Shown here: positions 14,075 to 62,000 of the stretch, in pieces
How positions within the stretch are numbered: the stretch's first letter is position 1
How the letters are laid out: each line of letters starts with the position of its first letter
Assembly: GCA_014607495.2 (NCBI GenBank)
Contig: CP053155.1
Coordinates: 8,804,001-8,868,000 of the forward strand
Direction of reading: 5' to 3'
DNA length: 64,000 bases
Source of the DNA: Carposina sasakii
Lineage: Eukaryota > Arthropoda > Insecta > Lepidoptera > Carposinidae
Translations under genes and position numbers: made by a program
The notes under the pieces: generated by a model
Databases searched by the model: none
What the model saw: the letters and a program-made list of their open reading frames with translations, nothing else
What the model was told of the DNA's origin: nothing

Positions 14075-16516
14075 CTAATGTAACTTACTGCATGGTTCTA
14101 GTATAAAGCAGCCATAATCAAAGTGACTCCGCACGATCGCGTTATATAGAAGTTTTTGACTATAAGGATGCGATCCCCAATGGACGTTAGAAAGAGAACG
14201 TAAGATGTTAACGCCTTTTTCTGCCTTGCCACAGATATATTTGAGATGGTGTATACCATTTAGTTTAGAGTCGAAAAAAATGCCTAAAAATTTTGTGTGG
14301 TTTTGGACGGGAATTGGGCAGTCATCAATACGTATGTCAACATTGGGTAGGTTTTTTCTACGAGAAAATATCACTGTTGTGGATTTCGGAGGAGACAGTG
14401 ACAAGCCGTGGTCTGATAGCCATATATTGAGATACGACAGAGCTGAATTGAGTCTAGAAGCGGCAATATCTAGAGATCTGGCTGAGGAGTAAAGAGCAAT
14501 GTCATCGGCGTATTGTAAGATGTCACAAAAGCTAGTCACTGATCTTTCAAGGTCATATGTATAAAGATTGTATAGCAGCGGACTTAAGACCGACCCCTGG
14601 GGGAGGCCTTTCCATATAAGCCTCGTCGAGTGTATATGGCCATTCACGCGAATTGAAATGGATCTAGCCATGAGCATGTGACATATTATATGAACTAGCC
14701 TCACTGGTAGGCTCAGCTGTAGCAATTTCGCTCTGAGCTCAGGAAGTAGAACATTATCATACGCCGAGGAAACATCCAAGAATACGCCAATGACAGATTC
14801 ATTGTTGGAAAATGCACGCCGAATATCTGTGGTAAAGATGCTCAGGCTATCGAGTGTGCTTCTACCTCTACGGAAACCATATTGGGAATTTGGTAGAATG
14901 TTCTTATTTTCTACAATCCATTCGAGACGATTTTTAATAAGATGCTCAAATATTTTTACCAAAGTGGATGATAACGCAATCGGTCTGTAAGAAGACGACT
15001 CGGATGGAATTTTTCCGGGTTTTAAGATCGGGATTATAATCTGAGTTTTCCAAGATGGGGGAAGAATCCCACTAGTAAATATAAGGTTTATTAAATCTAA
15101 GAAAAATAATTTAGCGGCTTGAGAACAGTTAATAATAAAAGAATAAGGAATTCCGTCAGCACCTGGGGCAGAATCTTTTAGACCATCCAGAGCACAGAGC
15201 AGTTCGGTGTATAGGAAAGGTGAGTCCATAGGGTCATTACTGGAAAGAGGAAGAGGAAAAGAAGATGGGAAGTAATTTAAAGGAGGAACGTATGGGGGTG
15301 CAAGCTTATCTATGAATCCGGGGAGCCAAGAGTCTGTCATGTTGGTGGATGTGGCATTGTGATCATTACATGAGCGTCGAAAGCTGCTAATTCTTCTCCA
15401 GACTATAGAGGAAGGTGTACGCGGCGATAACGATTCACAAAAGGTTCGCCACCCCAGGCGTTTTTTATTCAATAAGAACCTCTTAGACTCCGCGTTGGTT
15501 TTTTTATAATGGACGTAATTCGTTATAGACGTAGGATTACGGACAAAGTTTTTTTCTGCTGTATTCCTTATTTTAATTTGTTTTGTGCAATCTGCATCCC
15601 ACCAGGGAGGGGAAGGAATTTTGTTACGAGCCGAATTCTTAATAGGGATGGATTGATCCGCTGCAGATAACAAGGCGGCTGTAAAATTATCATAAGAAAC
15701 ATTTAGGTTTGATAGGTTGATTGAAGGAAGATGGGAGATAATAGAGTCGACAAGAGCAGTAAAAGTTTCCCAATCGGCTGACTTTATTTTATATTTAAGC
15801 AAAGGAGACGGAGCGAGCGATGGACGACTGACAATATTTACTGATGTAACTATCGGATAGTGATCACTACCAAACGTTAAGGGAAGTACATCCCAAGATA
15901 TAGAGGATATTAAGTTTGGAGAGGCTAGAGTCAGATCAACACAACTTTTTCTTTCCCGGGGGGATGGAATGCGAGTTGCTCGTCCATCATTGGCCACACA
16001 AACGTTCAACTCATCAAGAAGATCAATCAGAGCGTCTGAATAAGAACAACAGTAGGGAGAGCCCCAAAGGAAATGATGGCAGTTGAAATCACCGAGGATG
16101 ATGATATCGCCTGAAATAGAGGAAAGAAGGACTGATTTAAGGTCACAGAGGATGTTATTGGAAGGATGTGGAACATAAACAGAAACGAAGGATATATTTA
16201 AAGCTTTGACAGCTATAACATGAAAATCCTCATTATGAGGAGGGATAGGAATTTGGGAAAATGGTACGGAACGATTTATTAATAAGGCACATCCTGCATG
16301 ACCAAGGGGTCTGTCATCGCGGAGACAGAAGTATCCTGGCAATCTAAACCGTGAATCCGGTTTAAGCCAGGTCTCTGAAACAGCGAGGACGGCAGGTTTG
16401 TGTTGATTGATTAAATAAATGATATCAGATTTTTTGTGTGTAATGCTTTTACAATTCCATTGAAGAAGGTTGAATGTTATAAATCGATAGAATAGATTGA
16501 AGTGTAGGAATGACAT
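14075..16516 (-). pseudogene. LINE ORF2 proximal part: AP endonuclease and reverse transcriptase
   Basis: Open frame of about 813 codons from the ATG at 16516. The N-terminal endonuclease shows QWNCKS, SETWLKP, GDFNCHHFLWGS and GSDHYP, the expected metal-binding and catalytic motifs. The reverse transcriptase shows SYRPIALSSTLVKIFEHLI, QYGFRRGRSTLD, FLDVSSAYDNV, LPQGSVLSPLLYNLY and the catalytic box YADD. The frame ends at a premature stop at 14075, after which the normal continuation lies in another frame. This long stretch is unusually well kept for an otherwise broken copy. Confidence 0.92.
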
Positions 16517-16678
16517 TGGGCGGTAGGCTATCACTAAATTTAGACAATATATTAACTAAAGCAGATACTAATAACTGAATTAAATTTTCATTCGGTGACG
16601 GAGAATAGGATAAAGGTTGAGGTTGAGAAGTCCCAGAGAGAGCAGCACCATTTGGGAGAGAGGAAGAGGGTGGGTGGA

Positions 16679-18104: not shown

Positions 18105-18356
18105 TATTCTTTTTCGATAGAAGTTTGTTTCTGTGAAGACGTAAGGTTAGAATTATTTTTAAATCTGTTATAATCTGCTAAAATTTTGTATAAAATGTGG
18201 TCAAAGTGTATAATTTTAGTGTATTGCCAAATGTATCACACGGGTTTTGCAGTATTTCAACAATTACTTGTGCTACATGAAATCACCAGATAGCGGTTAT
18301 GTCGTGTTGTTTTGACTTCACAATGGAAATAAGTATTTCTTTGGCGTATGTTGCAG
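18105..18356 (+). promoter_or_regulatory. RpL14 5' leader and 5'-UTR intron
   Basis: A pyrimidine run (attctttttc) near 18108-18116 fits the TOP/TCT start of ribosomal protein genes. A consensus donor (gac|gtaagg) lies at 18141 and a ttgcag acceptor ends at 18356, six bases before the ATG. This suggests a short non-coding exon 1 and a 216-base intron in the leader. The transcription start is inferred. Confidence 0.65.
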
Positions 18357-18362
18357 GTCGAA

Positions 18363-18866
18363 ATGCCCTTTGAAAGGTACGTGGAACCAGGGCGTGTAGC
18401 CCTGGTAGCTGATGGCACCTTGAAGGGAAAGTTGGTGAGCGTGGTAGATGTCATCGACCAAACCCGTGTTCTAGTTGATGGTCCATGCAGCGGTGTCAGC
18501 CGGCAGCAAATCCGCTTGAACCAGCTGCATCTCACAAAGTTCCGCCTAAAGTATCCATTCACAGCACCCACACGTGTGGTCAGAAAAGCTTGGACAGACG
18601 CTAAGTTAAACGAGAAATGGGCAGCAAGTCAATGGGCTACCAAATTAGCCAACAAAGAGAAACGTGCTCAGATGACCGATTACGACAGATTCAAACTCAC
18701 CTCCGCACGTGTAAAGAGGAATCGCGCAAGAACCGCCGTCTTCAAAAGCCTCAAAGTTAAGGCCGCACGCAGTGGTGCCTTTGGCAAGAAACAGATTCCC
18801 AAGAAAGCAGTCAAGAAGCAGCGTGTGAAGAAACCTGTTGCCAAGAAAACTCCAGCAAAGAAGTAA
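18363..18866 (+). CDS. RpL14: 60S ribosomal protein L14 (eL14)
   Basis: A structural protein of the large ribosomal subunit, 167 residues. It begins MPFERYVEPGRVALV, like insect and vertebrate L14, and the ATG at 18363 is the first after the leader intron acceptor. The KOW-like N-terminal fold (GKLVSVVDVIDQTRVLVDG) is followed by LTKFRLKYPFTAPTRVVRKA, then a basic Lys/Ala-rich tail (KKPVAKKTPAKK) typical of animal L14. The coding part is in one exon. An AATAAA at 18911 follows the stop by 45 bases. Immediately downstream on the same strand is the snoRNA host gene; the two could share a promoter. Confidence 0.98.
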   Translation: MPFERYVEPGRVALVADGTLKGKLVSVVDVIDQTRVLVDGPCSGVSRQQIRLNQLHLTKFRLKYPFTAPTRVVRKAWTDAKLNEKWAASQWATKLANKEKRAQMTDYDRFKLTSARVKRNRARTAVFKSLKVKAARSGAFGKKQIPKKAVKKQRVKKPVAKKTPAKK

Positions 18867-18910
18867 TTCTTTTGTGACTTACACAGTTACTAGTGTATTA
18901 AGGACAATCA

Positions 18911-18916
18911 AATAAA
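18911..18916 (+). terminator. RpL14 poly(A) signal
   Basis: AATAAA 45 bases after the stop, followed by a GU-rich stretch (cttgtgttgttttc) at about 18933-18946. The first donor of the downstream host gene is only 60 bases further on. Confidence 0.8.
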
Positions 18917-19144
18917 GAATTACTCTAAGCTAAATCTTGTGTTGTTTTCTAAAAATGTCCTATGACATACATCAGGTGAGTTATTTCTTTATTACTTCTG
19001 TTATGTTTGTTTTTTTACTGAATTTATTTTGCTTTTCAGGTGGTCAACTACAAAATGACAATGTCATGATGCTTAATTGAATGAAGGTATGTAGATTTCC
19101 TTTCCCTTAGTCTTAGATGTATAAATTTTAATACACTGATTTCA

Positions 19145-19207
19145 ATGATGATATTGTTAAGTCTCGTTCATATGAACTTTATGATTTCAATCTTAGCACC
19201 TTACTGA
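19145..19207 (+). ncRNA. Box C/D snoRNA, U30-like copy 1
   Basis: C box ATGATGA at 19145 and D box CTGA at 19204. The guide GTCTCGTTC before an ATGA-type D' pairs with the conserved 18S stretch GAACGAGAC, as human U30 does. It is a diverged copy; the two further copies are better. It lies in the intron carrying the foldback transposon. Confidence 0.75.
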
Positions 19208-19233
19208 TGTTTATTTTGTGTTATTATAAATGA

Positions 19234-20565
19234 AATTGTATTAGGCGTTACAATTCGGAAGTTCAAACATTCACTATGGGTGCACCCACCACTGGGCCCT
19301 ACACCCTCCACTCACCCTCAGATCTGATAACTCATAACTGCAAAAACAGGCACTTGCACTAACTACAGTCGCCACGAGAAACCAGATCCCAGCACCTAGC
19401 ATGCAAGACATTAGTAAACCACTAATTATTATGAGACTCTAAAACCCAACACATTACCTACACAGAATTAACTAGCCTCTCATGTCTCTACATTTATTAT
19501 TACTAATTTCTATAATCCTGAGGATGCCAGTTGTTGGCGAAACATATGTAGATTATTTATCTAGTTTTCCCAGCATTCACTCTCCTTGCAATATCTTTGT
19601 CATGCTTACCATTCCTTGTAAACAAAGTCCCCAGATACACGAACTCAGTCACTTGCTCCAATCTTTCTTCGCCAATCATTATTTTGCAATCCGCCATTAC
19701 CTCATCCTTTTCAAAAACCATCACTTTCGCCTTACTTACATTCTCTATTGAGGGATCACCTGCCACCGGGCCTTATACCCTCCGCTGACCCTCGGATCTG
19801 CCTACTCATGATCACGAACACAAGACACTACAGTCACAACGAGAAGCCAGATCCAAGCACCTAGCATGCAACCATAAATACATAGCTGCTAATCCGAAAA
19901 CCAATAAAAATTTTAATCAACATATGTTTCGCCAACACCCGTGGCATCATCAGGATTAGTTTTCCATGTTAGTTCTATCTACCGATCCAACTAACTAACT
20001 AACAACTAAAACCAATGTATTGCAAAGGATTTTTATACCCTCAATCAAAATAAAAAATGTTAATACCTACATATTAGTTTTTAATATAAAATTATTATAG
20101 ATAAATAAATATTAAAAATATACATATTAGTTTTATATTATTTATTTATTTATATTTTTAATATTTATTTATCTATAATTTTATATTTCAAACTAATATG
20201 TAGGTATTAACATTTTTTATTTTATATTTTGATTGAGGGTATAAAAATGATTTGCAATACATTGGTTTTAGTTGTTAGTTAGTTGGTTCGGTAGATAGAA
20301 CTAACATGGAACACTAATCCTGATGATGCCACGGGTGTTGGCGAAACATATGTTGATTAAAATTTTTATTCGTTTTCGGATTAGCAGCTATGTATTTATG
20401 GTTGCATGCTAGGTGCTTGGTTCTGGCTTCTCGTTGCGACTGTAGTGTCTTGTGTTCGTGATCATGAGTAGGCAGATCCGAGGGTCAGCGGAGGGTATAG
20501 GGCCCGGTGGCGGGCGATCCCTAAATAGAGATTTGAACTTCCGAATAGTGACGCCTGATACAATT
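19234..20565. mobile_element. Composite foldback transposon inside a host-gene intron
   Basis: The ends are inverted repeats (AATTGTATTAGGCGTTAC... and its complement with few changes) of about 34 bases. Inside, 19750-20040 and 20150-20520 form a second, much longer inverted repeat (caccgggcc, gatctgcctactcatgatca, cgaaacatatgttgatt). Another related arm lies at 19270-19560. A reverse-transcriptase scrap (VYLGTLFTRNGKHDKDIARR, minus strand 19560-19766) is nested inside. The element is 1332 bp with no intact gene. Confidence 0.8.
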
Positions 20566-20739
20566 CAATATTTACTTACATTCATCTTCATCCCGCAGAT
20601 TTTTAAGATCATGTAAAAAATAATTACTTTTATTTCTAGCAGGCATCCAGTATGATACTTCAAGACTGATGAGGTAAGCTAGTTTTTTGGTACATTTGTT
20701 ACACAAATATTATTGGCAATCTATTAACTAAAATGTTAA

Positions 20740-20792
20740 ATGATGACTTTTGTATCGCCCCTAGCTGATTCTTGATGATTGATTGTTCCTGA
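20740..20792 (+). ncRNA. Box C/D snoRNA, U31-like copy 1
   Basis: C box ATGATGA at 20740, guide TTGTATCGCCCCTAG, D' CTGA at 20765, C' TGATGAT at 20773 and D CTGA at 20789. TGTATCGCCCC can pair with the conserved 28S GGGGCGGUACA (one G-U pair). The fifth base from D' faces the second G, the same target geometry as human U31. It is centred in a 192-base intron. Confidence 0.88.
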
Positions 20793-20968
20793 TATAAACT
20801 TATAATAGTTACCATTTTTATGTCTTAACATTATTTTGTTAATTAATTATTTAATTCCTTTACAGGTCATGGCAATAAAAGATGATCCTGTAATAATTTA
20901 AAATGAAAATTGGAAAGTAAGTGAACACAATATTTTGTATGACATATTTTGAATTTCTAGTATACACT

Positions 20969-21021
20969 ATGATGACTTTTGTATCGCCCCTATCTGAATT
21001 CTGATGACCGATCATTACTGA
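20969..21021 (+). ncRNA. Box C/D snoRNA, U31-like copy 2
   Basis: C box at 20969, guide TTGTATCGCCCCTAT, D' CTGA and D box CTGA at 21018. It carries the same 28S antisense element as copy 1, with a changed base next to D'. It lies in the intron 20917-21087. Confidence 0.88.
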
Positions 21022-21280
21022 TAAAATATATATATATATTAAATGCCTTTTTAAAATCAAATCACTTATTTACATTTTTTTTTTCAGATACTCAAGAGAA
21101 GTTAAAATTAGTGTCACATCATTTACAGCTAACAATGTTGGCCCTACATGGCTGATGAATGTAAGTAGTGTTTGTCCTTAGCTGGTTTCAAATATCTGAT
21201 AAATGTGTTTATCTACCTAACCTACCCTGTAGAGTTCTATTAGTCAAGCAGGTACTTAAGTCTGAAACTTGACATTTTAT

Positions 21281-21346
21281 ATGATGATTTATATTGTAGT
21301 CTCGTTCGTATGATCTCAATGATTTTAAAACATACCACCTTACTGA
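21281..21346 (+). ncRNA. Box C/D snoRNA, U30-like copy 2
   Basis: C box ATGATGA at 21281 and D box CTGA at 21343. The guide GTCTCGTTCGT before ATGA pairs over 11 bases with 18S ACGAACGAGAC. The fifth base faces the A methylated by U30 in vertebrates. It lies in the intron 21161-21418. Confidence 0.85.
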
Positions 21347-21588
21347 TATTATTTTATTGGCATTGTTAATAGAAGTTAAGTTTTCAAAAGTCTTAACATT
21401 TCTATTTATTTTTTTCAGGTATTACATGAGGTGGAGCCTTCTGTACAGACAATAACTGGCACAGTGAGTATTATTTATATTTGTTTCTAAATTTAAATGT
21501 ATATTTGTATGCATTTTGTCTAATAAATGAAAATTAAATGAGATAACTAATGTTAAAAGAGATGGTAAAATTCGTCATCCGAGTAATT

Positions 21589-21660
21589 GACCCGGTAACT
21601 CAGAGGTTAGAGCGGCTGGCACAGTTTGCAGTGGTTGTGGGTTCGATTCCCACTAGGGTC
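21589..21660 (+). repeat. tRNA-like insertion (SINE head or tRNA pseudogene)
   Basis: 72 bases with A-box-like taactcagaggttagag and B box ggttcgattcc. The T stem is perfect (GTGGG/CCCAC), but the acceptor stem has a mismatch and the anticodon stem does not form. It is absent from the duplicated sister unit near 23145, so it inserted after the duplication. I do not call it a functional tRNA. Confidence 0.75.
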
Positions 21661-21783
21661 AAGAATTTTTTCCATTTCTTTATTAATCATTTAATAACTA
21701 ATGTAATGGAACTGTTACTGTAGCCTACTCAAATCAGTATAAGTCTCCATGCTTTGTCTAATATGTATAAGTCGTTTTTGTAC

Positions 21784-21907
21784 CCTACCAAAGCCGATGT
21801 GTGTACAGAATCTACTGTCATACGTGACTCTGGCTAGGAACATTAGCACATTCTGTGTAAATTGTGTGGTTGCATAGCCATACGATCAAGGGTTGAATGT
21901 GACAAAT
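21784..21907 (+). ncRNA. Box H/ACA snoRNA candidate, copy 1
   Basis: A 5' hairpin closes with AGCC/GGCT and an inner ACAG/CTGT stem. The H box ACATTA is at 21840-21845. The 3' hairpin is closed by CACATTC (21847) with GAATGTG (21895), with an apical GTGTGG/CCATAC stem and an open pocket between. ACA at 21902 is followed by three bases. This is the full hairpin-hinge-hairpin-tail layout. The rRNA target is not worked out. Confidence 0.75.
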
Positions 21908-22074
21908 ATAATTTATTTCAATCTATAATTAAAATCCTTTATTTTATACTGATTAACTAACTTTATATCTGTTACTTTCAGGTTGTCTGTGTTAATAGAA
22001 CTAGAATATGGTGCTTCAGTCAATATTGTAAGGTGAATGTCTGTTTGAATTAAGAAGTTTAAAGTTTAATTTCA

Positions 22075-22127
22075 ATGATGACTTTTGTATCGCCCCTAGC
22101 TGTATTTTGATGATTGATTGTTTCTGA
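22075..22127 (+). ncRNA. Box C/D snoRNA, U31-like copy 3
   Basis: C box ATGATGA at 22075, the U31 guide TTGTATCGCCCCTAG, D' changed to CTGT, C' TGATGAT and D CTGA at 22124. It sits in the spacer between the two duplicated units. The altered D' could weaken it. Confidence 0.82.
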
Positions 22128-22302
22128 TTATTATATTTCAATTAACATTATGCAGATTTTTAAGATCATGTAAAAAATAATTACTTTTATTTCCGGCAGG
22201 CATCCAGTATGATACTTCAAGGCTTAGACTGATGAGGTAAGCTAGTTTTTTGGTACATTTGTTACACAAATATTATTTGCAATCTATGAACTAAAATGTT
22301 AA

Positions 22303-22355
22303 ATGATGACTTTTGTATCGCCCCTAGCTGATTCTTGATGATTGATTGTTCCTGA
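22303..22355 (+). ncRNA. Box C/D snoRNA, U31-like copy 4
   Basis: Identical in boxes and guide to copy 1. C box at 22303 and D box at 22352. It is the sister of copy 1 in the second duplicated unit, in the intron 22237-22428. Confidence 0.88.
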
Positions 22356-22531
22356 TATAAACTTGTAATAGTTACCATTTTTATGTCTTAACATTATTTT
22401 GTTAATGAATTATTTAATTCTTTTACAGGTCATGGCAATAAAAGATGATCTTGTAATTATTTAAAATGAAAATTGGAAAGTAAGTGAACACAATATTTTG
22501 TATGACATATTTTGAATTTCTAGTATACACT

Positions 22532-22584
22532 ATGATGACTTTTGTATCGCCCCTATCTGAATTCTGATGACCGATCATTACTGA
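22532..22584 (+). ncRNA. Box C/D snoRNA, U31-like copy 5
   Basis: C box at 22532 and D box CTGA at 22581. It is the sister of copy 2, with the same guide. It lies in the intron 22480-22657. Confidence 0.88.
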
Positions 22585-22850
22585 TAAAAATATATACATA
22601 TATATATATTAAATGCCTTTTTAAAATCAAATCACTTATTTACGTTTTCTTTTTCAGATACTCAAGAGAAGTTAAAATTAGTGTCACGTCATTTACAGCT
22701 AACAATGTTGGCCTTACATGGATGTTGAATGTAAGTAGTGTTTGTCCTTAGCTGGTTTCAAATATCTGATAAATGTGTTTATCTACCTAACCTACCCTGT
22801 AGAGTTCTATTAGTCAAGCAGGTACTTAAGTCTGAAACTTGACATTTTAT

Positions 22851-22915
22851 ATGATGATTTATATTGTAGTCTCGTTCGTATGATCTTAATGATTTCAAAC
22901 ATACCACCTTACTGA
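22851..22915 (+). ncRNA. Box C/D snoRNA, U30-like copy 3
   Basis: C box ATGATGA at 22851, guide GTCTCGTTCGT and D box CTGA at 22912. It is the sister of U30-like copy 2 in the second unit, in the intron 22731-22987. Confidence 0.85.
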
Positions 22916-23273
22916 TATTATTTTATTGGCATTGTTAATAGAAGTTAAGTTTTCAAAAGTCTTAACATTTCTATTTATTTTTTTCAGGTATTACATGATG
23001 TGGAGCCTTCTGTACAGACAATAACTGGCACAGTGAGTATTATTTATATTTGTTTCTAAATTTAAATGTATATTTGTATGCATTTTGTCTAATAAAGGAA
23101 AATTAAATGAGATGACTAATGTTAAAAGAGATGGTAAAATTTGGGGGAAGAATTTTTTCCATTTCTTTATTAATAATTTAATAACTCATGTTGTAATGGA
23201 ACTGTTATTGTAGCCTACTCAAATCAGTATAAGTCTCCATGCTTTGTCTAATATGTATAAGTCGTTTTTGTAC

Positions 23274-23397
23274 CCTACCAAAGCCGATGTGTGTACAGAA
23301 TCTACTGTCATACGTGACTCTGGCTAGGAACATTAGCACATTCCGTGTAAATTGTGTGGTTGCATAGCCATACAATCAAGGGTTGAATGTGACAAAT
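23274..23397 (+). ncRNA. Box H/ACA snoRNA candidate, copy 2
   Basis: Nearly identical to the candidate at 21784-21907, with H box at 23330 and ACA at 23392. The few differences (ttccgtg for ttctgtg, catacaatc for catacgatc) leave the closing 7-bp stem intact. It lies in the intron 23033-23519. Confidence 0.75.
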
Positions 23398-23688
23398 ATT
23401 TCTATTGTAATCTAAGTAGTACCTGGTGTATTTACTGTGTAAGCCATAAAATATTTTTTACTGAACAACTATTATTGGGCAATGAAGTATTTTTTAATGA
23501 GTCATATTTTTTGTTTCAGGTTTACATCTAAAGCTTCTTGTTATAAACACAGGTATGTTCATTTTATCCCAATTCATATTATTATTTTAGTTTATTATAC
23601 ACACTTAAAAACAAATACCAAGACATGAAAGATCTTAAGAAGTACATTTACCATTTACCTGTAGATGATAATGAATTTGTATGTTTTT

Positions 23689-23742
23689 ATGATGACTTTT
23701 GTATCGCCCCTATCTGAAATCCTGTTGATTGATAGTAACTGA
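23689..23742 (+). ncRNA. Box C/D snoRNA, U31-like copy 6
   Basis: C box ATGATGA at 23689, guide TTGTATCGCCCCTAT, D' CTGA, C' TTGATTGAT-like and D CTGA at 23739. It lies in the intron 23553-23817. Confidence 0.87.
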
Positions 23743-23917
23743 TTATATCTTTCCTATCCTTTTTACTTCATTGTCAGTGATGATTTCCAAAAATAATAAA
23801 TTACTTTTCTTTTTCAGAACAAGTTAGTCGACTAATGAAATTATTGGAGAAAATACTTGGTAAACACCTTTGGATACCTAATTTAATTATGAACATCATA
23901 TTACTTACTCATTTACT

Positions 23918-23972
23918 ATGATGACTTCTAGTATCGCCCCTATCTGAAAACCTGTTGATTGATGTATTCTGA
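23918..23972 (+). ncRNA. Box C/D snoRNA, U31-like copy 7, altered guide
   Basis: C box ATGATGA at 23918, then cttctaGTATCGCCCCTAT, D' CTGA and D CTGA at 23969. The outer end of the guide differs from the other copies, shortening the pairing to about GTATCGCCCC. It lies in the intron 23860-24043. Confidence 0.84.
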
Positions 23973-24150
23973 TTTTTTCCCCAAAATTCAAAATTACATT
24001 TCAATTGGTCAAAATTGTAATAATCAAATTAAATGTTTTTCAGAAATAGTCACCTTGGCAATGAAGGGTCTTCAATTGTGTACCTACACACCTGCTAATA
24101 AATTGGTAAGCAATCAAAATATTACTGTTATGAATACATATTTAAGCTTT

Positions 24151-24205
24151 TATGTTGACTTTTGTATCGCCCCTATCTGAGAACCTGCTGATTGATTGTT
24201 TCTGA
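24151..24205 (+). ncRNA. Box C/D snoRNA, U31-like copy 8, altered C box
   Basis: The guide TTGTATCGCCCCTAT, D' CTGA at 24177 and D CTGA at 24202 are kept, but the C box reads ATGTTGA. That change is expected to weaken snoRNP assembly. It lies in the intron 24106-24278. Confidence 0.78.
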
Positions 24206-24375
24206 GAATAAATAATACTTTATAATTTTACAACCATCTAGGAATTTGCATTAACTGTATTTTTTTCTTTTCTTTTAGGGTTTCCTTTTGTAATCTACAT
24301 AGTGATGGTGAGACAGAAGACAAATTTTTAAAAAGGTTGGTAAATGGAATATGAGACGTAATTTTCTTACAACTG

Positions 24376-25325
24376 GTTGCGCGTGCAAAGCCGCGTAAGG
24401 GCCGAAACGAAAAACCGCGTTGCGGCGCGAATTCCAGCGTTGTTACGCCATACTTGGTGATAGACGTAACATAACAACTAAACAAAAAAGGATCCCGACG
24501 ATCTTTTATCCGACAGCCAAGCTAATATTTCAATTGATCCTGGCTGCTCAGTTGTTATGTTACGATCATTAGAAAATATCTATCATTATACAGGTGATTT
24601 TTGGTCGTCAACGTTCCCGAAAACTACGGAATCTCCTCATCATCACGATCATTTTTCTCCATGGAAGCATACCTGGGAAGTGTCTGGTTTCCAAAATATT
24701 TGGGTCCAAAGTTGAGTAAATAGACAGCGTTTTTTCTGCATAAATGCACATAGACGCGCGTAGCAGGATTTTTTCACGAAAAATAATTAATATCTGTCTA
24801 TAAAAAAACTAACATAAACACTAGACACTATAAATTTCGCACGATCAAGGAATTAAAAAAATTTTTCAAAAAAAAAATTTTTTTTCCCAGCATTTTTTTT
24901 GGCAAAAACTTACTTTATTTCATGTATAGAATACGTATCCTTCGTTAAAGGTGGCCACAAAAAAACATCCTGTAGAATTCTAGACCACCGGACATCTAAG
25001 TGCTTGTTTTTTTTCAGTTTTTTATTATGTACATTATTTGGTTCTTTTTTAAGCAGCCAGGTTTTCTGGATTTTTTTAATTATGTTTTTTTATTCTGTAA
25101 TGGATTTTTGCATAAGCGCGAAAGTGACTTCACTGAATCTAAACAAGTTATGGGTAAAATTACTTTTGTTTCAATTAAATAAGTCGCAAAGAAGTAGCTA
25201 TGAAGTTCAGTCAGTAATACATAGTTACAATGACTTAAGATATCACGTTTTTCTTCCTGTGAAATCGTGAAAAAGTAGATACGCGGTATTAACAAATAGA
25301 TCATACGCGGCTTTGCACGCGCAAC
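24376..25325. mobile_element. 950-bp DNA transposon with perfect 22-bp inverted ends, nested composite
   Basis: GTTGCGCGTGCAAAGCCGCG... at 24376-24397 is exactly inverted at 25304-25325. The interior is built of other repeats: family A text at 24480-24560 and 24975-25075, and a complete TACAGG-type MITE at 24589-24974. No transposase gene is seen. It splits a host-gene intron, next to a U27-like candidate. Confidence 0.85.
24589..24974 (+). mobile_element. TACAGGGT-type MITE, complete copy
   Basis: The ends TACAGGTGATTTTTGGTCG and ...AAAAAACATCCTGTA are inverted repeats flanked by TA, suggesting a Tc1/mariner-type target. It is 386 bp and very similar to 44750-45123. Confidence 0.8.
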
Positions 25326-25343
25326 GACGATATAATGATATAT

Positions 25344-25399
25344 GTGATGCTAATTCACAAGCATATATCATATCATTTTGATGATAGTTTTTTTACTGA
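25344..25399 (+). ncRNA. Box C/D snoRNA candidate, U27-like, next to a transposon
   Basis: A degenerate C box GTGATGC at 25344 is followed by ACAAGCATATATC, the antisense element of U27 (pairs with 18S AUAUGCUUGU). C' TTGATGAT and D CTGA at 25396 follow. The upstream flank was replaced by the 950-bp transposon ending at 25325, only 18 bases away, so it may be damaged. Confidence 0.6.
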
Positions 25400-25758
25400 T
25401 TGAATATGAGTTGAACTACAAGTTTTTAGTCTCAGAAATAAGTTCTATTAACAATTTATTATTTGTTTCAGACTTTTAAGAAACATGGGAAATTAAATTA
25501 GGAATAAAAGGTACATAAGATTTCTTAATTTAAAACACTAAAGCAGGGTAGCCAACTTGGTTAGACCCAAGATGCACTGTTTACTGACAACCTATCAATT
25601 ACATACTACTTAAAATGTCAAATAAAATGGCATAGTTCAATACACAATTAATGTAGTGTGTAGATTTCCTTACCCTATATCAACAAAGACTAATAGTTGT
25701 GATCGATGGGTTGACCACTCCTGCTCTAGAGAGATGCACTACAAAACTTTTGACTTAT

Positions 25759-25824
25759 ATGATGATTATCTGTTATCCCTGTCTCACTAAGCCATGGGGA
25801 AAAATATGGTATGGTAACTACTGA
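25759..25824 (+). ncRNA. Box C/D snoRNA, snR38-like copy 1
   Basis: C box ATGATGA at 25759 and D box CTGA at 25821. GTTATCCCTGT before a CTCA-type D' pairs over 11 bases with the universally conserved 28S ACAGGGAUAAC at the peptidyl-transferase centre. The fifth base faces the middle G, the position guided by snR38 in yeast (from memory). It lies in the intron 25511-25892. Confidence 0.82.
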
Positions 25825-26051
25825 ATACATTACCACGTTAGTTAACCTTATTGTGGTTATTATACAGTTTACCATCATTGTTTTTATTTTAGGTTTAATA
25901 TTGCTGTAGAAAATACTACCTGCCTAACAAGAGAGGAATGAAAATGTAAGCACCTACATACCTTTTTAGTTTCTTAATGTTAAAAAGAAATGCACCAATC
26001 TGGTGCATATCTTAACAAACTGTTTATAAGTAGCAGTATAAGACCTGTTAC

Positions 26052-26117
26052 ATGATGATTATCTGTTATCCCTGTCTCACTAAGCCATGGGGATAAATAT
26101 GGTATGGTAACTACTGA
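26052..26117 (+). ncRNA. Box C/D snoRNA, snR38-like copy 2
   Basis: C box ATGATGA at 26052 and D box CTGA at 26114, with the same 28S guide as copy 1 and near-identical overall. It lies in the intron after exon 25893-25945. Confidence 0.82.
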
Positions 26118-26164
26118 GTAAATTCAAAAGGTACTTTCCATTATACTTGGTCTGTATTTATTCT

Positions 26165-26375
26165 AAATATTTTTTCTGTTTTTCCATTACTACTATAAAA
26201 TGGTCTGCCACCTTAACGAAGGGTACGTATTCTATACATTAAAGTAAGTTTATTCTAAATATTTTTTCTGTGTTATATAGACAGGCTAACATATACAGAA
26301 CTACCCTATAAAATCCCAGGGCTTCCATGGAGAAAAATGATCGTGATGATGAGGAGACGTAGTTTTCGGGAACTA
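26165..26375 (-). repeat. Degenerate TACAGGGT-type MITE in reverse orientation
   Basis: ccttaacgaagggtacgtattctatacat and gcttccatggagaaaaatga / gatgatgaggaga are reverse complements of the MITE at 24589-24974, with the middle lost. Part of it lies inside the putative host exon ending at 26386. Confidence 0.75.
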
Positions 26376-26502
26376 CTATATTTCAGGTAAGCAATTTTTA
26401 GTCAAAATTGTGTCGTTAGTCAATTATTAGTAGATTAGCAAATTCACCCATGGAATATCTGTCATACTCGTAATTAGACGATGCTTAGCTAATGCAATAA
26501 TA

Positions 26503-26567
26503 ATGATGAATAACTGTTATCCCTGTCTCACAAAGCCATGGGGAAAATATGGTATGGTAACTACTGA
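26503..26567 (+). ncRNA. Box C/D snoRNA, snR38-like copy 3
   Basis: C box ATGATGA at 26503, guide GTTATCCCTGT and D box CTGA at 26564. It lies in the intron 26387-26636. Confidence 0.82.
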
Positions 26568-26824
26568 AAATAGTGTTTTATATTTTGTCTTATAATAGTA
26601 TTGAATTAGGACACTGTACTTATAACTTTTTTACAGGAAATTAACAACTGGCTTCTGCATGTTATGCAATAGAATTTGCAGGTAAAGAACCTTTTGTGTT
26701 TTATTTTAAAAAATCAATATATTCATCCTGTTTATCCATATTGTGTACTGGATAATTATTTCATTGGTGACAACATAATGATGTAATTAAATGAAGTTTT
26801 ACATATTGTACATTATTATAATTG

Positions 26825-26883
26825 ATGATGATTTTTCTGACAAGCATATATCTTGAATATTTTTGAAGATCTTTTCAATCTGA
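26825..26883 (+). ncRNA. Box C/D snoRNA, U27-like
   Basis: C box ATGATGA at 26825 and D box CTGA at 26880. GACAAGCATAT pairs with 18S AUAUGCUUGUC near the 5' end of 18S. Taking CTTGA as a degenerate D', the fifth base faces the same A as in human U27 (A27). It lies in the last intron, 26682-26952. Confidence 0.8.
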
Positions 26884-27082
26884 TTAACTTCAGTATGTAT
26901 TGCATTAATGATAAAAAAATTGAAAAATAATAATTTTGGCATTTCTTTTCAGAATGAATGTGGACGACAAGAAGATATTGAAATAGACTTTAACTTTGAA
27001 GTTTCGTGTTTTATTTCTAAATAAATATTAAGTTAATTTAAATTGATACTTCTTAATTTCTTAGAGTAATCCCTAAAATACA

Positions 27083-28336
27083 TAGGGGAGAGCAGGTACG
27101 GGTAGGATTCGTGCAGAGGGAGCATTCGTACAGTAGGCATATCATATCTACACTATTCTACTTCTACATGTTGATGCGTTTGTATTTGTATGCGAGAGTG
27201 AGACCCCCACATCCTTTTCCCAATAAGTTTTGCTCAAATTGTTAAAGTAATTTATAATAGTTATTGAATAAGTACCTTAAGGTATTCAACCAGTGCGTGC
27301 TGCCGGTGTTGACCTACGGTGCCGAGACGTGGTCTCTAACTGTGCCTCATAAAGAAGCTCGGGATCGCACAGCGAGCGATGGAGAGCTATGCTCAAAATC
27401 TCTGCGTGATCGAATCAGAAATGAGGGCATCCGCAGACGTACAAAGATCACCGACAGCTCAATGGTCTAGCAAGCTGAAGTGGCAATGGGCAGGGCACAT
27501 AGCTCGAAGAACTGATGGCCGATGGAGTCGGAAAGTTCTAGAGTGGATACCACGTATCGGCAAGCGCAGCGTGGGAAGGCCACCCGCGAGGTGGGCGGAC
27601 GACCTGGCCAAGGTCGCGGGCGTCGGTTGGAATTATCTGCATCATTCAATTCTTGAAAAGGCAATACTTTTTGCTGCGCGAACGCACACAGTTTAGAAAG
27701 AATCAAAATCTGGAATCCATTTAGCTCGTAGCTCTTCACCAGTGCAATGGAAGACGTATTTAAGCTCCTCGAATGGAAAGAACTCTTCAATATCAATGGC
27801 GAATACATACTCTTTGGTTGGCAGACGACATCGTGGTCATGCCAGAAACACTAAAGCACAATGCTCGACGGCTTCAGTCTTATTTCTTAGGTTTAAGTTA
27901 AACTGTGACAGCCCGAATGTCCAATACGAAATGCGAGTAATCCCATATACTATAACTACAATGAAACTTCACAGGTGCCATGACTACCGGGGTGGTAAAC
28001 GCCACTTATTAGTGTCAATCACCACCCCAGTGGTAAACTCGAGGGTGGTAGATGGGAATAAAGGCGTTTCAGGTGTACTCTGTCGTGATTTGGATCTCAA
28101 TAAATGTTTAATTTCATATAAACAGCGTTTTCAATTATTGTGTACGGAGGCGTGTGGCGTGAAAATGGATCATAGTTTTGTCATGTTACATTAATTCAAA
28201 CCTGAGCTACATTATTATTAAAGCCAGATAACTAGGTGATTCAATAGCATTATATTTATTGTGGAATAGCTATTAGTTTAGTATTTAAATGACCTAGTGT
28301 AATAAAAAGTGTACGAATCCTACCTGCTCTCCCCTA
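27083..28336. mobile_element. DNA element with inverted ends, carrying LINE fragments
   Basis: TAGGGGAGAGCAGGTA... at 27083 is inverted at 28336 (TACCTGCTCTCCCCTA), and both are followed inward by a form of TAGGATTCGT. Inside lie two RTE-like LINE pieces, 27279-27628 and 27731-27880. It occupies most of the space between the snoRNA host gene and the next gene; the remaining 28337-28892 shows nothing recognisable. Confidence 0.75.
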
Positions 28337-31265: not shown

Positions 31266-34200
31266 TTAATTTGCATTTTTTATCGTTAATTCACTTTGGC
31301 AGTCGCTAGGAACCCTGTCTGTAAACAGCTCTGGTATCTGTAAAAATATATTTGAAAGTGAGAACACTCAAACTAGGTACACATTGCAACTAACTAAGTT
31401 TTAAATTACAGGTAGCTAGGTACCTAAGAAAGTTAGTAGGTACTTTGTCCCAGGCCCTACGCAGAATTGGAGCAGGTAAGAAAGTATGTAGGTACCCACT
31501 TATATTACCAAAAATCTAAGTAGGCTACTAAACCCTGGGTGTAGGGTTACCAGATGAAAAAACCGGAGAAATGGCCTGATTTCCATGGAAAAGTCCTGAA
31601 ATTTTATACAGCTTAAAAATTTTCTCTCAAAAGCGTAATATTATCGTTTTATAGCCCATACGTTGCAACTTGCACATCGCACTCGAAGCGGCGGAACGGG
31701 GTTGTTTAGTTTGTTTCACTTCGATAAATAAGTATAGACTTTAACTGTTCAGTTGTTACCAAAAGAAGGTTATAGTTAGTTGGTTTAACTTTTGATTAAA
31801 GACATCTTTAAAAATCCTGAGATATCACGAGATTTGCAAAATTCGGCCGCAATCCTGAGAAAAGTCGAAAAATCCTGAGATATGGTAACCCTACATGGGT
31901 GAGTTGCAGACGGTTTTTAACCCGTAATTCAAGAAAAACGTAATTAGTATGCCTCCTTATTAACCCCTAAAACGATTTAACATATTCTAATGCCGTATTA
32001 TGTAGGTCAAATAACATACCTGTGGTGTATAAGCTTCAACTCTATCGAGTAGGGAGTCGGAATATCCTGGCGTATAGTACCTGGGAAGGTAGATCACAGA
32101 CCTTTTATATTAGACGTATGAATCAGGCTCTAGTCAAGAAGTAAAGAAAGATGTAAGAGACGTATCTGATTGACGCCACGTGGGTAACAGTATGCATATT
32201 AGCTTACCTAACGATTTCTTCTGGGAAGCAACTGTTTATAATGTTAACATATTCTTTCAGCGAAGTTCCAGGGACTGTATCTATTTCTTGTATCCTCTTT
32301 AGTGCACCAGTCGACACAAATAGCCTTCGAGCTCTTGCATCATTTGGCAGTATCTGTTAAATTTAAATTGACTCATCAAATAAGCTGTAAGTAGCCTATT
32401 ATTTCTAGAAAAATAACACGAAACATAATTTTTTTGTTGAGTTGGCAAAACATTTCCAGAACGAATGTTTAGTGATTTCTTTGTTGGCATGTCTGTTATG
32501 TATTTTAAAAAAAACACATAACCTCAAAATGTCATGTCTGTCTCTTTTGTTTGTTGTAGTTTCGTGTTATTTTCCTTGTTGAATTTATGCTGTCTAAAGT
32601 TGTTATACAGAAAAGTTAGTGATGGCGGGAAGAGGAAGAGGTCGAGGTGGCAGCGGCCTTTCGTTAACCCATGAACAGTTGCAAGCATTAGGAGCTGCGC
32701 GAGGAGAAAGCAGTGCCGCAGTTGTTGCTCCACCTCCCTTATTTCCTAAATTAGAACGTAAGCCCTTGCCGCTAACATCTGACGCAGCCACCGATTATAT
32801 GCTTATCGTAAAAGATCAGTTCATTGAGTACTTGCACAACTCCCCAGCGTATGTCAGAGCGAAGGAACAGACAGATGGTGTAGAACGTTATTCTGATAAA
32901 TACAAGATTTTAGCACAGAATGCTAAAAAGGGAAAAGTGTTAGATTGCGTTTGGTCTAATATGCCCAGTGAGTTACATCCCCAAGCCAGAAGAATAAAAC
33001 CTCAACGTAAACGCAAATCAAATGATGCAGAAGAGATAGCTAAGAAATTACAGACGCTGGAGAAAAAGGAGACACAGGAAGAACTCGGAGATGCCGCAGA
33101 TAATAATGAGACTGAGCAGGCTAAGAAGAATGATGATGATGAGGAATTGGAAGAAGAAATTGAACAAGATGAAGACATTGATGATGGCACAGACTATGCA
33201 AATCAATACTTTGATAATGGAGAAGATTATGAAGAGGAAGATGATAACCTTGATGATGGTCCAGTCTATTAAACTATGAACTGAAAGTAGAACACATGTG
33301 TTTATCAAATGTAGGTATAACACCAACATGACTTGACAGGACTTCGTCATTGATAAAGTGGACCACAACAAAGATTACAATCTTCTTCTTAACAGAATGA
33401 ACAGAAAAGACTATCTTTTCTCTTCTCTTTACAAATTAATAAGTGAAGTATAGATGTGCTATCAACTAAGTAACTTGTGATATTACTGGGTAGTTTAGTT
33501 TATTAGCCATAGTTTTTAAGTAGTTTAATTTCTCCAGTTCATATCATTTACTGCCATTAAATTTAATAGACATTTTGAAATAATAGTTAATTAAGAAATT
33601 GTACAGCAGCATCTTAATAAATACCCAAAAGCACCTTGTTAATATTTGTAACATTCTAGTCACTACCAAGTTGGTTAGGTAACCATGATTCTTGTGAACA
33701 GTTTGTTATTATTATGGCCACTTATAACAGCTGATAACTTGTGATTTTAAAGGTTGCTGTCTATATTGAAAAAATACTCATTTGTGAGTAAGGGCCAATT
33801 TTTCCAAACATCAGATACCCTATCAGAGGAATAAAGTTGATGCTGTCTCTATTACGATCAAGTTTTAGAGAAAGACAACATCAACTTTATTCTTCTGATA
33901 GGCTATCTGACATGTTTGGAAAAATCTGCACTAAATCAACCTGACATAATTAATGTTTAAACCAGAGGCTAAATTAGTTCTCAGAAATGTAATATTTTGC
34001 ACTACATATTTTAAATCAATTTTATTAAATAATGTAAAAAGTATTGTACTTAGTGGAAATTATTTAATCCTTAACACCTAAATTAATATATTCATCAGGC
34101 TAGATCTCACATTATGGGAATATCATTTTAACTTTAGGATTGTAAGGTGTAATGTATAGAGTATATTATATTCTAGTATAGAGCTACTGTCCATAATCCT

Positions 34201-59007: not shown

Positions 59008-62000
59008 ATGAATTCTGATGAAGTTCCTCCTGCCCCTTCATCAGAAGTGGGATCGAACGGAGATCGGATTGAGCAAGAAAGAACCAAGTCGGATACAGAA
59101 AAACTTCTTAGTAACATGGAAATGCTGCTATCTCGTGTTCTCGCAGCCCAACAAACATCGACTGTGAGTTCTAACCAGCCAGCGCACTTTTTGCCTTTTA
59201 ATCCTGACGAACCGGACTGTGACATAGATGGCTGGTGCAATATTACCGAAGCGATCGTTCAAAGTAAGCGCTTAGAAGGCATAGACTTACTTATGGCCCT
59301 AACTAGCGCTCTAAAGGGGCGTGCTGCTGCTTGTATCACTAAGATGAATTTAAATGATATGACTTGGAGCATCGTCAAGCAGACACTGTTAGCAAAATTC
59401 TCAAAACCGAAGCTTTTTCAGGACTACTTTGATGATATACTCCGTTTTCAAATTGGAGCTAAGGAAACTGCCTCGGAATGTGCTCTTCGATTATGGAATT
59501 TGATTGAACGTATACCTAAAACTGTGATGCCTGAAGAAGTGGTGACCGGATTTGTCATTTCAGTACTTTGTCAAAAGGATGGATTGATAAGACGCGAACT
59601 GAATGCACACAACATAACAACTCGCAGTCAATTGTTCCGAATTCTGGGAGGTGTGTCTTTTAAGCGGCGTCTGGATAACGTTGAAAGTAGTGAACCTGAA
59701 ACGAAACGTGTTCGTACTACTGAAAGATTTACTGGCAGATGTAATTTCTGTGGCATTACAGGACATCGGTTCGCAGAATGCCGGAAACGTCGCGATGAAT
59801 TTGGGTCAGTTAAACCTCAAGACAATGCGGGTTCTTCTCGTTCATTAGAGAATGCGGCTCTTGTTACATGCTACTCGTGTGGGAAAAAGGGTCATGTGGC
59901 AACTAACTGTCCCGATAGAAAGAATGGTGGTAAAGCTGCGGTCAAGGAAGTCCACAATTGTGAACATCGTCCTTCAAGAGGTATTCTAGCAACATCTTCC
60001 GGTGAGTCTCTACCTTTTTTATTTGACAGTGGGTCATCTTGCTCTCTCGTAAAAGAAAGTTATAGCGATAAACTCTTGGGTACTGTGTGTAAAAGTCTCG
60101 TGTATCTTAGCGGCATTGGAGGTAATGACATACAATGTACTTTACAAATTCAGGCTGAGGTTAAAATTGCTGATGATTTGGTTAGCTTACTCTTTCATGT
60201 GGTTTCTGACAACATTATATCGGAACCTATAATTATTGGTAGAGATATTTTTGATCAAGGATTAAGTGTCAAAATTAATAACGATAATCTTATTATATAC
60301 TCTAAACAACGTTCTAATGTTTGTAACGTAACATCGAATCTTCTAGATTTGACGAAAATTGATACGGATTTACAGGGTCAGTTTAAAGAGACGTTAATTT
60401 CTATACTGGGTAAATACGCGAATAGTTTTGTTGAAGGTATACCTACCAAACGTGTGAAGACTGGAGTATGCGAAATTAAATTAGTAGATCCACATAGAGT
60501 CGTACAGAGATGTCCCCATAAAAGAGCACCCATAGAAAAACAAATAATTAGGGAAAGGGTTCAACAATTATTAGACGCAGGAGTGATCCAGGAGAGTACG
60601 TCCCCATTTGCTAGCCCAGTTGTCATTGTAAAGAAGAAGGATAATTCTGACCGACTTTGTATTGATTTTAGGGAGTTAAATTCCAATACTGTACCGGAAC
60701 ATTATCCCTTACCGCGTATAGACGAACAGATCGATCAACTGACGGGAGCTAACTTCTTCTCTTCTTTAGATATGGCTTCCGGTTTTCACCAGATCCCTAT
60801 TCACCCTAATTCAGTGAATAAAACGGCTTTCGTAACAAATGAAGGGCAATATGAGTATTTAGCGATGCCATTCGGTTTGCGAAATGCCCCTTCAGTGTTT
60901 CAGAGGTGTATCACAAAAGCATTTAGTCATTTAGCGAATAAACCGTTGATATACATGGATGATGTATTATGTCATTCCATTAATATCTCTGAAGGACTGA
61001 AGCAGCTTGATCTTGTTTTAGGTGCGTTGTCGGAAGCTGGGTTTTCACTTAATCTTAAGAAATGTAAATTCATGAAACAACAAATAGACTATTTGGGATA
61101 TTCCATACAATCAGGTGAGATTAGACCCAACTCCCGGAAAATTCGGGCATTAGCGGATGCCCCTGAAGCGAAATCAGCTACTAATGTCCGCCAATTTCTT
61201 GGGTTGGCCTCTTATTTCCGTAGATTCATCCCCGATTTTACACATATAGTCGGACCGCTATATCCCCTAACGAAACTGAAAGGACGAATAACTTGGACCA
61301 GCGAACATGAAAAGATTCGCAATAAAATTATAGGTATCCTCACGTTAGAACCGGTACTGACTATATTTGACCCGGAACTTCCCGTAGAGCTACATACCGA
61401 TGCTAGCTCGGAAGGTTATGGAGCAATTCTCTTACAAAAGTTAAATAATTTCCTCCACGTCGTTGAGTACTTTAGCCGCCGAACATCTGATTCAGAATCT
61501 CGTTATCATTCCTACGAGTTAGAGACGTTAGCGGTGGTTAGAGCGGTAGAGCATTTCCGGCATTACCTTTACGGCCGGCGATTTGTTGTAGTTACCGACT
61601 GTAATTCACTCAAGGCGTCCAAATCGAAGAAAGACTTAACACCCCGTGTCTATCGATGGTGGGCTTACTTACAAGCGTATGATTTCGACATTGTATACCG
61701 CGAAGGAAGTAAAATGGAGCATGCTGACTATTTGTCCCGAAATCCGCTGCCGAGTTCGGATACTGCTGCCCCTACTACCCTTGAAAAGACTCGACTTAAA
61801 ATTGTTAACTATGTTGAACTTCACCGGGGTTGGTTGTCAGTGGAGCAGAAACGAGATCCAGAGATACAAGATCTTATCTCGAAACATCACGATAACAGCT
61901 TTCCAGAAACAGTAGCTCGTACGTACGATGTTAGAAATAGCATTCTTTATAGGAAAGTTTGTCGTAATAAGTCAGTTGCATGGTTACCTGTAGTTCCCCG

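Follow-up and report, generated by a model that had tools for sequence, protein, structure and literature searches.

A predicted Uhg-type non-coding host gene for snoRNAs directly behind RpL14 in the lepidopteran Carposina sasakii

Directly behind the ribosomal protein gene RpL14 on contig CP053155.1 of Carposina sasakii lies a predicted gene of very short exons whose introns carry small nucleolar RNA (snoRNA) candidates. We analysed it within a window of 64,000 nucleotides (nt), the whole stretch of DNA considered here, in which it occupies positions 18930-27045 of the plus strand. A splice-site scan, followed by assembly of exons and introns by hand, yielded a model of 20 exons (31-106 nt, with both the 5' and the 3' outer end uncertain) and 19 introns, every one of which has GT-AG borders. 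SnoRNA candidates occur in 18 of the 19 introns, one per intron, and intron 1 (64 nt) is empty. Sixteen are box C/D RNAs (eight U31-, three U30-, three snR38- and two U27-like), and two are H/ACA RNAs of the fly H1/snoR639 type. A preliminary description of this DNA had proposed about 20 micro-exons with good splice sites, about 18 intronic snoRNA candidates, one each, and a non-coding, multi-intron host gene. The model bears out all three proposals, and the observation as such is confirmed. Its exons, from the splice-site scan and hand model, are these:

18930..18975, plus strand: host exon 1; 5' end uncertain, perhaps the read-through end of the last RpL14 exon or a start near 18869
19040-19086, 20643-20673, 20866-20916, 21088-21160, 21419-21463, 21982-22032, plus strand: host exons 2-7
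22200-22236, 22429-22479, 22658-22730, 22988-23032, 23520-23552, 23818-23859, plus strand: host exons 8-13
24044-24105, 24279-24339, 25472-25510, 25893-25945, 26281-26386, 26637-26681, plus strand: host exons 14-19
26953..27045, plus strand: last host exon (E20); AATAAA at 27020, 3' end approximate

Exon 1 ends in the donor CAG/GTGAGT, which agrees with the consensus at 9 of 9 positions, and intron 1 begins at 18976. Spliced together, the exons make a product of 1063 nt with a longest open reading frame (ORF) of 71 amino acids (aa), for which shuffled sequences give a 95% value of 69. The counterpart of this frame in an internal duplicate stops at 47 aa and carries replacement changes. A protein-coding reading of the host exons was rejected, although by length the longest frame is marginal.

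The box C/D candidates are concentrated in this gene. Both strands of the window were scanned for [AG]TGATGA followed by CTGA 45-65 nt on, limits that were set after inspection of the sequence. This strict scan returned 14 matches, all of them on the plus strand within 18930-27045, with none elsewhere and none on the minus strand. The chance of such clustering is ~7e-14 by a crude estimate on the 11 non-duplicate units, under a null chosen after the data had been seen. A relaxed scan, which covered the introns alone, was run without a control and kept one pairing per intron, found 37 C-D pairings with many overlapping alternatives and added the units at 24152 and 25344. The 16 units are as follows:

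19145..19207, plus strand: U30-like C/D RNA a, intron 2; C/D scans, guide aligned to snoU30 RF01283 (19.5 bits)
20740..20792, plus strand: U31-like C/D RNA a, intron 3; SNORD31 E=9.5e-4, alignment
20969..21021, plus strand: U31-like C/D RNA b, intron 4; SNORD31 E=0.0073
21281..21346, plus strand: U30-like C/D RNA b, intron 5; C/D scan and alignment, family match weak
22075..22127, plus strand: U31-like C/D RNA c, intron 7; SNORD31 E=8.4e-4
22303..22355, plus strand: U31-like C/D RNA d, intron 8, duplicate of a; SNORD31 E=9.5e-4
22532..22584, plus strand: U31-like C/D RNA e, intron 9, duplicate of b; SNORD31 E=0.0073
22851..22915, plus strand: U30-like C/D RNA c, intron 10, duplicate of b; strict C/D scan, alignment
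23689..23742, plus strand: U31-like C/D RNA f, intron 12; SNORD31 E=0.0041
23918..23972, plus strand: U31-like C/D RNA g, intron 13; SNORD31 E=3.3e-4
24152..24205, plus strand: U31-like C/D RNA h, intron 14; C box ATGTTGA, SNORD31 E=0.0055
25344..25399, plus strand: second U27-like C/D RNA, intron 15; C box GTGATGC, relaxed scan
25759..25824, plus strand: snR38/R38-like C/D RNA a, intron 16; snoR38 RF00213 27.2 bits, E=0.51, alignment
26052..26117, plus strand: snR38/R38-like C/D RNA b, intron 17; snoR38 25.5 bits, E=1.3
26503..26567, plus strand: snR38/R38-like C/D RNA c, intron 18; snoR38 28.4 bits, E=0.27
26825..26883, plus strand: U27-like C/D RNA, intron 19; SNORD27 22.7 bits, guide aligned

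These units also keep a regular place within their introns. Fourteen of the 16 C/D introns place the end of box D 66-75 nt from the 3' splice site (mean 71.3, standard deviation 2.4). Under a uniform-position null, set after seeing the data, the chance of this spacing in 11 of 13 non-duplicate introns is ~6e-13. The exceptions are U30a in intron 2 (1435 nt) and R38b in intron 17 (163 nt), and both introns carry insertions. According to one published account, most box C/D RNAs occupy a conserved position upstream of the 3' splice site, with an optimum ~50 nt before the branch point (PMC8162545).

The two remaining candidates are of the H/ACA class:

21778..21907, plus strand: H1/snoR639-like H/ACA RNA a, intron 6; H box ACATTA at 21840, ACA at 21902; snoR639 E=0.0055, fold z=-2.9
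23268..23397, plus strand: H1/snoR639-like H/ACA RNA b, intron 11; snoR639 E=0.033, fold z=-3.4

Each folds into a hairpin, the H box ACATTA, a second hairpin and ACA, and does so better than shuffled sequences. Their scores against snoR639/H1 (RF00291) are 28.8 and 25.7 bits, with a gathering score of 42. A two-hairpin scan that can miss weak examples covered 20 intron pieces, omitting parts of introns 2 and 15, and revealed no further H/ACA RNAs in the remaining 18.

To which families the units belong was judged with Rfam, run at E<=10 on the 8.2-kb region, on the whole window and on narrow stretches holding single units. Across the 64-kb window, 20 of the 21 snoRNA-family matches fall in the region, often with several families on one unit, and the only match outside it is SNOR75 (E=6.9). 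SNORD31 (RF00089) is listed eight times, with E-values of 3.3e-4 to 7.3e-3 on the 8.2 kb and 0.0026 to 0.057 on the 64 kb. All eight matches span the full model, and the U31 guide block GTATCGCCCCTA is invariant in 8 of 8 copies. Because even the best score, 32.3 bits, lies below the gathering score of 40, we use the label "U31-like."

The other families are less distinct. SNORD27 (RF00086) is marked by a GACAAGCAUAU guide upstream of D'. In the 26825 unit, the guide aligns to it in register, and SNORD27 is the top match by bits (22.7, gathering score 52); by E-value, SNORD121A is ahead of it (0.028 versus 0.041). The unit at 25344, the least secure of the 18, has ACAAGCATAT in common with the one at 26825. 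Its best match is TtnuCD28 (E=0.043 on 76 nt), SNORD121A matches weakly over the guide, and SNORD27 is unlisted for it in the narrow scan. Among the U30-like units, the guide UCUCGUUC is invariant in all three copies, the hallmark of the clan being a UCUCGUU guide upstream of D'. The guide of U30a aligned at 19.5 bits (gathering score 45; E=0.11 on 86 nt) to the plant U30 family RF01283, which in bits ranks fourth among 17. SNORD30 scores 18.6 bits on the second U30 unit, fifth of 24, and also 16.6 bits on the 26825 U27 unit, and so the SNORD30 model is without discriminating power here. Finally, snoR38 (RF00213) matches three units, with a best score of 28.4 bits (gathering score 45) and a guide, GUUAUCCCUGUCU, that is identical in all three. 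The identification of this trio as U29 was set aside because the Rfam match is snoR38. U22, U25, U26, U28 and U29 are unlisted at this threshold on the 8.2 kb, which is a weak negative, U30 being likewise unlisted.

The reading of U27-, U30- and U31-type guides in the preliminary description is firmest for U31, with its eight SNORD31 matches, and the low U27 and U30 matches lean on guides in register. As a whole, the earlier interpretation is supported in part and is correct as to the kind of gene. The family list itself was incomplete: the U27, U30 and U31 types stand, and the snR38- and H1-like families had been overlooked together with the strong donor on the RpL14 side, the internal duplication and the transposon insertions.

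Conservation sets the units apart from their surroundings. Older copies were compared for 11 of the 16 C/D units (6 of 8 U31, 3 of 3 R38 and 2 of 3 U30), with recent duplicates and U27 excluded. The RNAs are at least 80% identical (family means of 82-95%), and their 39-nt flanks average 49-57%. For unrelated stretches of intron at this locus the figure is 51% (5-95% range of 43-60%), and for random stretches elsewhere in the window it is 47%. The flanks of older copies are thus no more alike than unrelated intron sequence.

Several insertions interrupt this order. Three stretches, none with an assigned strand, bear on the introns:

19234..20565: inverted-repeat sequence of ~1.33 kb, in the part of intron 2 that separates U30a from the 3' splice site
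24376..25325: element in intron 15 bounded by terminal inverted repeats of 22 nt, 5' of the U27-like RNA; parts recur elsewhere in the window
within 26157..26373: 26-nt direct repeat at a 92-nt offset, intron 17

The sequence in intron 2 is probably a mobile element. Taking it out would leave ~100 nt by hand count between box D and the 3' splice site, and we do not claim a restored spacing. In intron 15 the spacing is intact at 72 nt, as the element sits 5' of the RNA. Pieces akin to that element lie at 26207-26259 and at 26314-26373, the latter (60 nt) inside exon 18. Subtracting the 92-nt shift would return intron 17 to 71 nt (163-92), presumably its original spacing. An argument could be made that the array is decayed or silent, a snoRNA cluster damaged by transposon insertion in which some copies are dead. 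The insertions in introns 2, 15 and 17/exon 18 speak for this, as do the displacement of U30a and R38b from the 3' splice site and the C box GTGATGC of the second U27-like unit, which may be decaying. Nevertheless, the splice dinucleotides are intact in 19 of 19 introns, the guide blocks are invariant, the older copies are conserved relative to their flanks, and at most single copies seem affected; we consider decay of the array very unlikely.

Part of the gene appears to be duplicated internally:

20595-21909 and 22152-23399 (span 20595..23399), plus strand: internal segmental duplication, ~97-98% identical

Each copy holds two U31-like, one U30-like and one H1-like RNA. The copies differ at 7 of 200 exon sites, 18 of 714 other intron sites and 0 of 24 splice donor sites; among the RNAs, the differences are 0 of 106 for U31, 2 of 65 plus an indel for U30 and 2 of 123 for H1. 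Exon sequence had been described earlier as unconstrained, and the similar divergence of exons and other intron fits that view, albeit on a small sample. The duplication might instead be an artefact in which the assembly placed two haplotypes in tandem, so that the gene would stay and four snoRNA copies would be lost from the count. The divergence of ~2.5-3.5% is within the range of insect heterozygosity. Yet no equivalent of exon 7 with its U31-bearing intron follows copy 2, and a tRNA-like insert is present in copy 1 alone, which makes such an artefact improbable. That insert (21576-21661) lies in the duplicated H1 intron, where copy 2 has GGGGG; with 37 bits at 21589, it is the sole Rfam match in the region to reach its gathering score. 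ARAGORN finds no tRNA gene there despite this score, and we treat the stretch as a tRNA-derived insert. Separately, the starts of introns 5 and 10 (21161-21280 and 22731-22850), the 120 nt that precede the U30 units, are identical between copies that elsewhere differ by 2-3%; no RNA was recognised in these 120 nt.

The likely rRNA targets were approached through human sequence because the species' own rRNA was not found. Neither a 127-nt query, in a search that skips very common words, nor a 23-nt exact pattern located 28S rRNA in the 31 contigs of the 399-Mb assembly, from which the ribosomal DNA array may be missing. On the human pieces, pairing extends over 10-11 nt for the U31 units, including one G-U, over 12 nt for the U30 units, G-U included, over 11 nt for R38 and over 10-11 nt for U27. 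By a hand count from D', the U30, U31 and U27 guides would fall on what we take to be Am3804, Gm4166 and 18S A27, respectively. The numbering of Am3804 and Gm4166 is that of a table in PMC3511168. Inspection by eye also shows TGGTAACT ahead of box D in the R38 unit, the complement of a stretch that adjoins its 28S target; this may provide extra pairing.

A number of observations weigh against reading the locus as a snoRNA host gene with these guides. Not one snoRNA match reaches the Rfam gathering score. On the 8.2 kb, the snoR38 matches (E of 0.27-1.3) and the single SNORD27 match (E of 3.7) are weak by themselves, SNORD30 is unlisted at E<=10, and the U30 and U27 identities would depend mainly on their guides. 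Pairing was tried on four short human rRNA pieces alone, chosen as expected targets, and not on whole rRNA; there, the longest match of the 26825 U27 unit is to the wrong piece (14 pairs with G-U, overlapping the C box), beating the expected 11-pair 18S match. The same unit and R38a fold no better than shuffles (z of 0.87 and 0.08, respectively), which is no bar for C/D RNAs. Of 212 background tiles, 13 also give a hit in the two-hairpin H/ACA scan, and the score of one (-42.4) is better than that of H1 (-39.2). In addition, the longest ORF slightly exceeds its shuffled 95% value, and the snoRNAs of the recent duplicates are not significantly less diverged than the remainder (4/294 versus 25/938, p=0.27; U31 alone, p=0.10).

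Taken together, the anatomy of the gene, the clustering of motifs, the spacing, the conservation of units relative to flanks and the family likeness of the guides form a basis at the sequence level, from which we infer transcription, splicing, RNA stability, targets and exon decay. On this basis, we read the locus, with a probability of roughly 0.93, as a Uhg-type gene, that is, a non-coding host for snoRNAs such as those already known from flies and vertebrates. RNA polymerase II would transcribe the host gene into one precursor, and splicing would take out the 19 introns. Eighteen of these, once debranched, would each be trimmed to one snoRNA protected by proteins; the near-fixed spacing of ~71 nt suggests that assembly of the C/D units is coupled to splicing. 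The spliced exons, with short frames only, would be a by-product that is probably degraded. The C/D RNAs are predicted to guide 2'-O-methylation of 28S (U30, U31 and snR38 sites) and 18S (U27 site), and the H1-like H/ACA RNAs would guide an 18S pseudouridine. The insertions that have moved two C/D units beyond 66-75 nt are natural material for testing, in a non-vertebrate, whether snoRNP assembly is coupled to splicing.

How such a precursor would begin is bound up with the gene in front of it:

18363..18866, plus strand: coding exon of RpL14 (60S ribosomal protein eL14); Pfam PF01929 E=1.2e-27, PDB eL14 E=5.3e-49

The product is closest to PDB chains 6xu6 and 4v6w; 6XU6 is described as a Drosophila ribosome in a source that also counts RpL14 of the fly among snoRNA hosts (PMC13228274). 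A motif scan placed a TCT/TOP-type initiator of RpL14 at 18107 and its poly(A) signal, AATAAA, at 18911-18916. The donor of the first snoRNA host exon (18976) falls 65 nt past the start of that signal, with 59 nt between the two. At the presumed 5' end of the snoRNA gene, the same scan found no full TCT initiator, only a 7/8 match at 18867, a level that occurs 3.6 times per kb. Full matches, of which the plus strand of the window has 26, stand at 18107 and at 19098, inside intron 2. As a separate observation, three of the window's eight E-boxes CACGTG (17997, 18571 and 18706) cluster within ~0.7 kb at RpL14, ahead of the snoRNA gene; in flies, E-boxes at Uhg genes are bound by Myc (PMC4430873).

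This arrangement raises the possibility that the snoRNA cluster is a read-through 3' part of RpL14. Where the poly(A) site is skipped, the donor at 18976 would splice an extended last exon onward, and one TCT/TOP promoter would yield both a ribosomal protein and guides for rRNA modification. The short distance between AATAAA and the 9/9 donor and the contrast between a full TCT for RpL14 and a 7/8 match for the snoRNA gene point in this direction. There are precedents as well: fly RpL23A-RB runs into Uhg7 (PMC5932544), and poly(A) choice in mfl sets its nested snoRNAs (PMC1821038). Given the proximity of donor and poly(A) signal and these fly cases, a shared RpL14 unit is plausible. However, independent genes can also be closely spaced, another full TCT stands at 19098, and the E-boxes at 18571 and 18706 could serve a separate promoter. 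On balance, we lean slightly away from read-through. A bolder combination appears unlikely, namely, that RpL14 and the array are operon-like, that the choice between poly(A) site and donor sets the ratio of mRNA to guides, and that the host set of U27, U30 and U31 dates from early animals. The adjacency suggests a direct tie between the supply of ribosomal protein and that of rRNA modification.

Other features of the window lie farther from the Uhg-type gene. Immediately behind it, inverted GAGCAGGTA-type copies, recognised by eye, flank ~1.2 kb at 27091-28335, which suggests another insertion. A coding exon downstream, at 32619-33272 (Pfam E=5.9e-31), likely belongs to the RNA polymerase III subunit Rpc31. 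Retroelement ORFs occur at 14075-16534 on the minus strand (non-LTR type, with endonuclease and reverse transcriptase) and at 59008-63285 on the plus strand (gag-pol type, with reverse transcriptase, RNase H and integrase).

Hosts of this kind have been described in other animals. Uhg1 of flies is said to carry U27, U29, U31 and U76, and dUHG genes to carry U27-, U29- and U31-like RNAs (Tycowski and Steitz 2001); the overlap in guides between phyla is for this reason probably not new. Another account records seven Uhg genes in flies, in which as many as 16 introns encode a snoRNA apiece, and slower growth on loss of Uhg1 (PMC4430873). The novelty claimed in the preliminary description was therefore overstated, since non-coding Uhg genes of flies are already in print. 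At the level of titles and abstracts, with subscription journals mostly outside the search, we found no lepidopteran snoRNA host gene; a Bombyx snoRNA study exists, as cited in PMC6458620.

In vertebrates, the snoRNAs housed by UHG are U22 and U25-U31, and nonsense-mediated decay removes the spliced RNA (PMC7277114). Like the gene described here, UHG/SNHG1 is reported there to have no coding potential and intronic box C/D snoRNAs, and U27, U30 and U31 are common to both. It differs in having eight C/D RNAs only, whereas we find 16 in four families plus two H/ACA RNAs. Our motif scan revealed no clear TOP start. Under random assortment, the sharing of three of the four C/D types has p of ~0.001-0.02 (assumed pools of 100-40 types, with U30 taken as real), which is low but no proof that the two hosts go back to one gene. 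Genuine inheritance from an ancestral UHG of bilaterians, with U27, U30 and U31 in one host since the last ancestor shared with vertebrates, would be compatible with the Uhg-type reading, and the shared types favor it. On the other hand, snoRNA-host links are argued to drift by intragenomic mobility (PMC3511168), snR38- and H1-like RNAs are outside the eight vertebrate UHG snoRNAs, H1 of flies is in mfl, and the U30 identification is mostly guide based. We hold the odds of such descent to be about even. The locus is thereby relevant to the question of whether the links between snoRNAs and hosts pass down by inheritance or change freely over time, on which PMC3511168 takes a view of "constrained drift."

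Our findings add an insect case to the non-coding Uhg genes of flies and vertebrates, and its guides overlap with those of vertebrate UHG. Drosophila Uhg1 and the other Uhg genes are similar in having no recognizable ORF, one snoRNA per intron and rRNA targets (PMC4430873); the gene here adds H1-like H/ACA RNAs and sits behind RpL14. In Drosophila RpL23A/Uhg7, a Uhg gene likewise lies directly behind a ribosomal protein gene, and a common spliced precursor was found by RT-PCR (PMC5932544). The ribosomal protein is a different one in our case, and read-through is putative. The third fly parallel is minifly/Nop60B (mfl, "Uhg6"), which hosts snoH1, a guide for 18S U1820 (PMC1821038). There, H1 is in a pseudouridine synthase gene, whereas here it would be in a non-coding host behind RpL14, a difference that fits the mobility of snoRNAs between hosts (PMC3511168).

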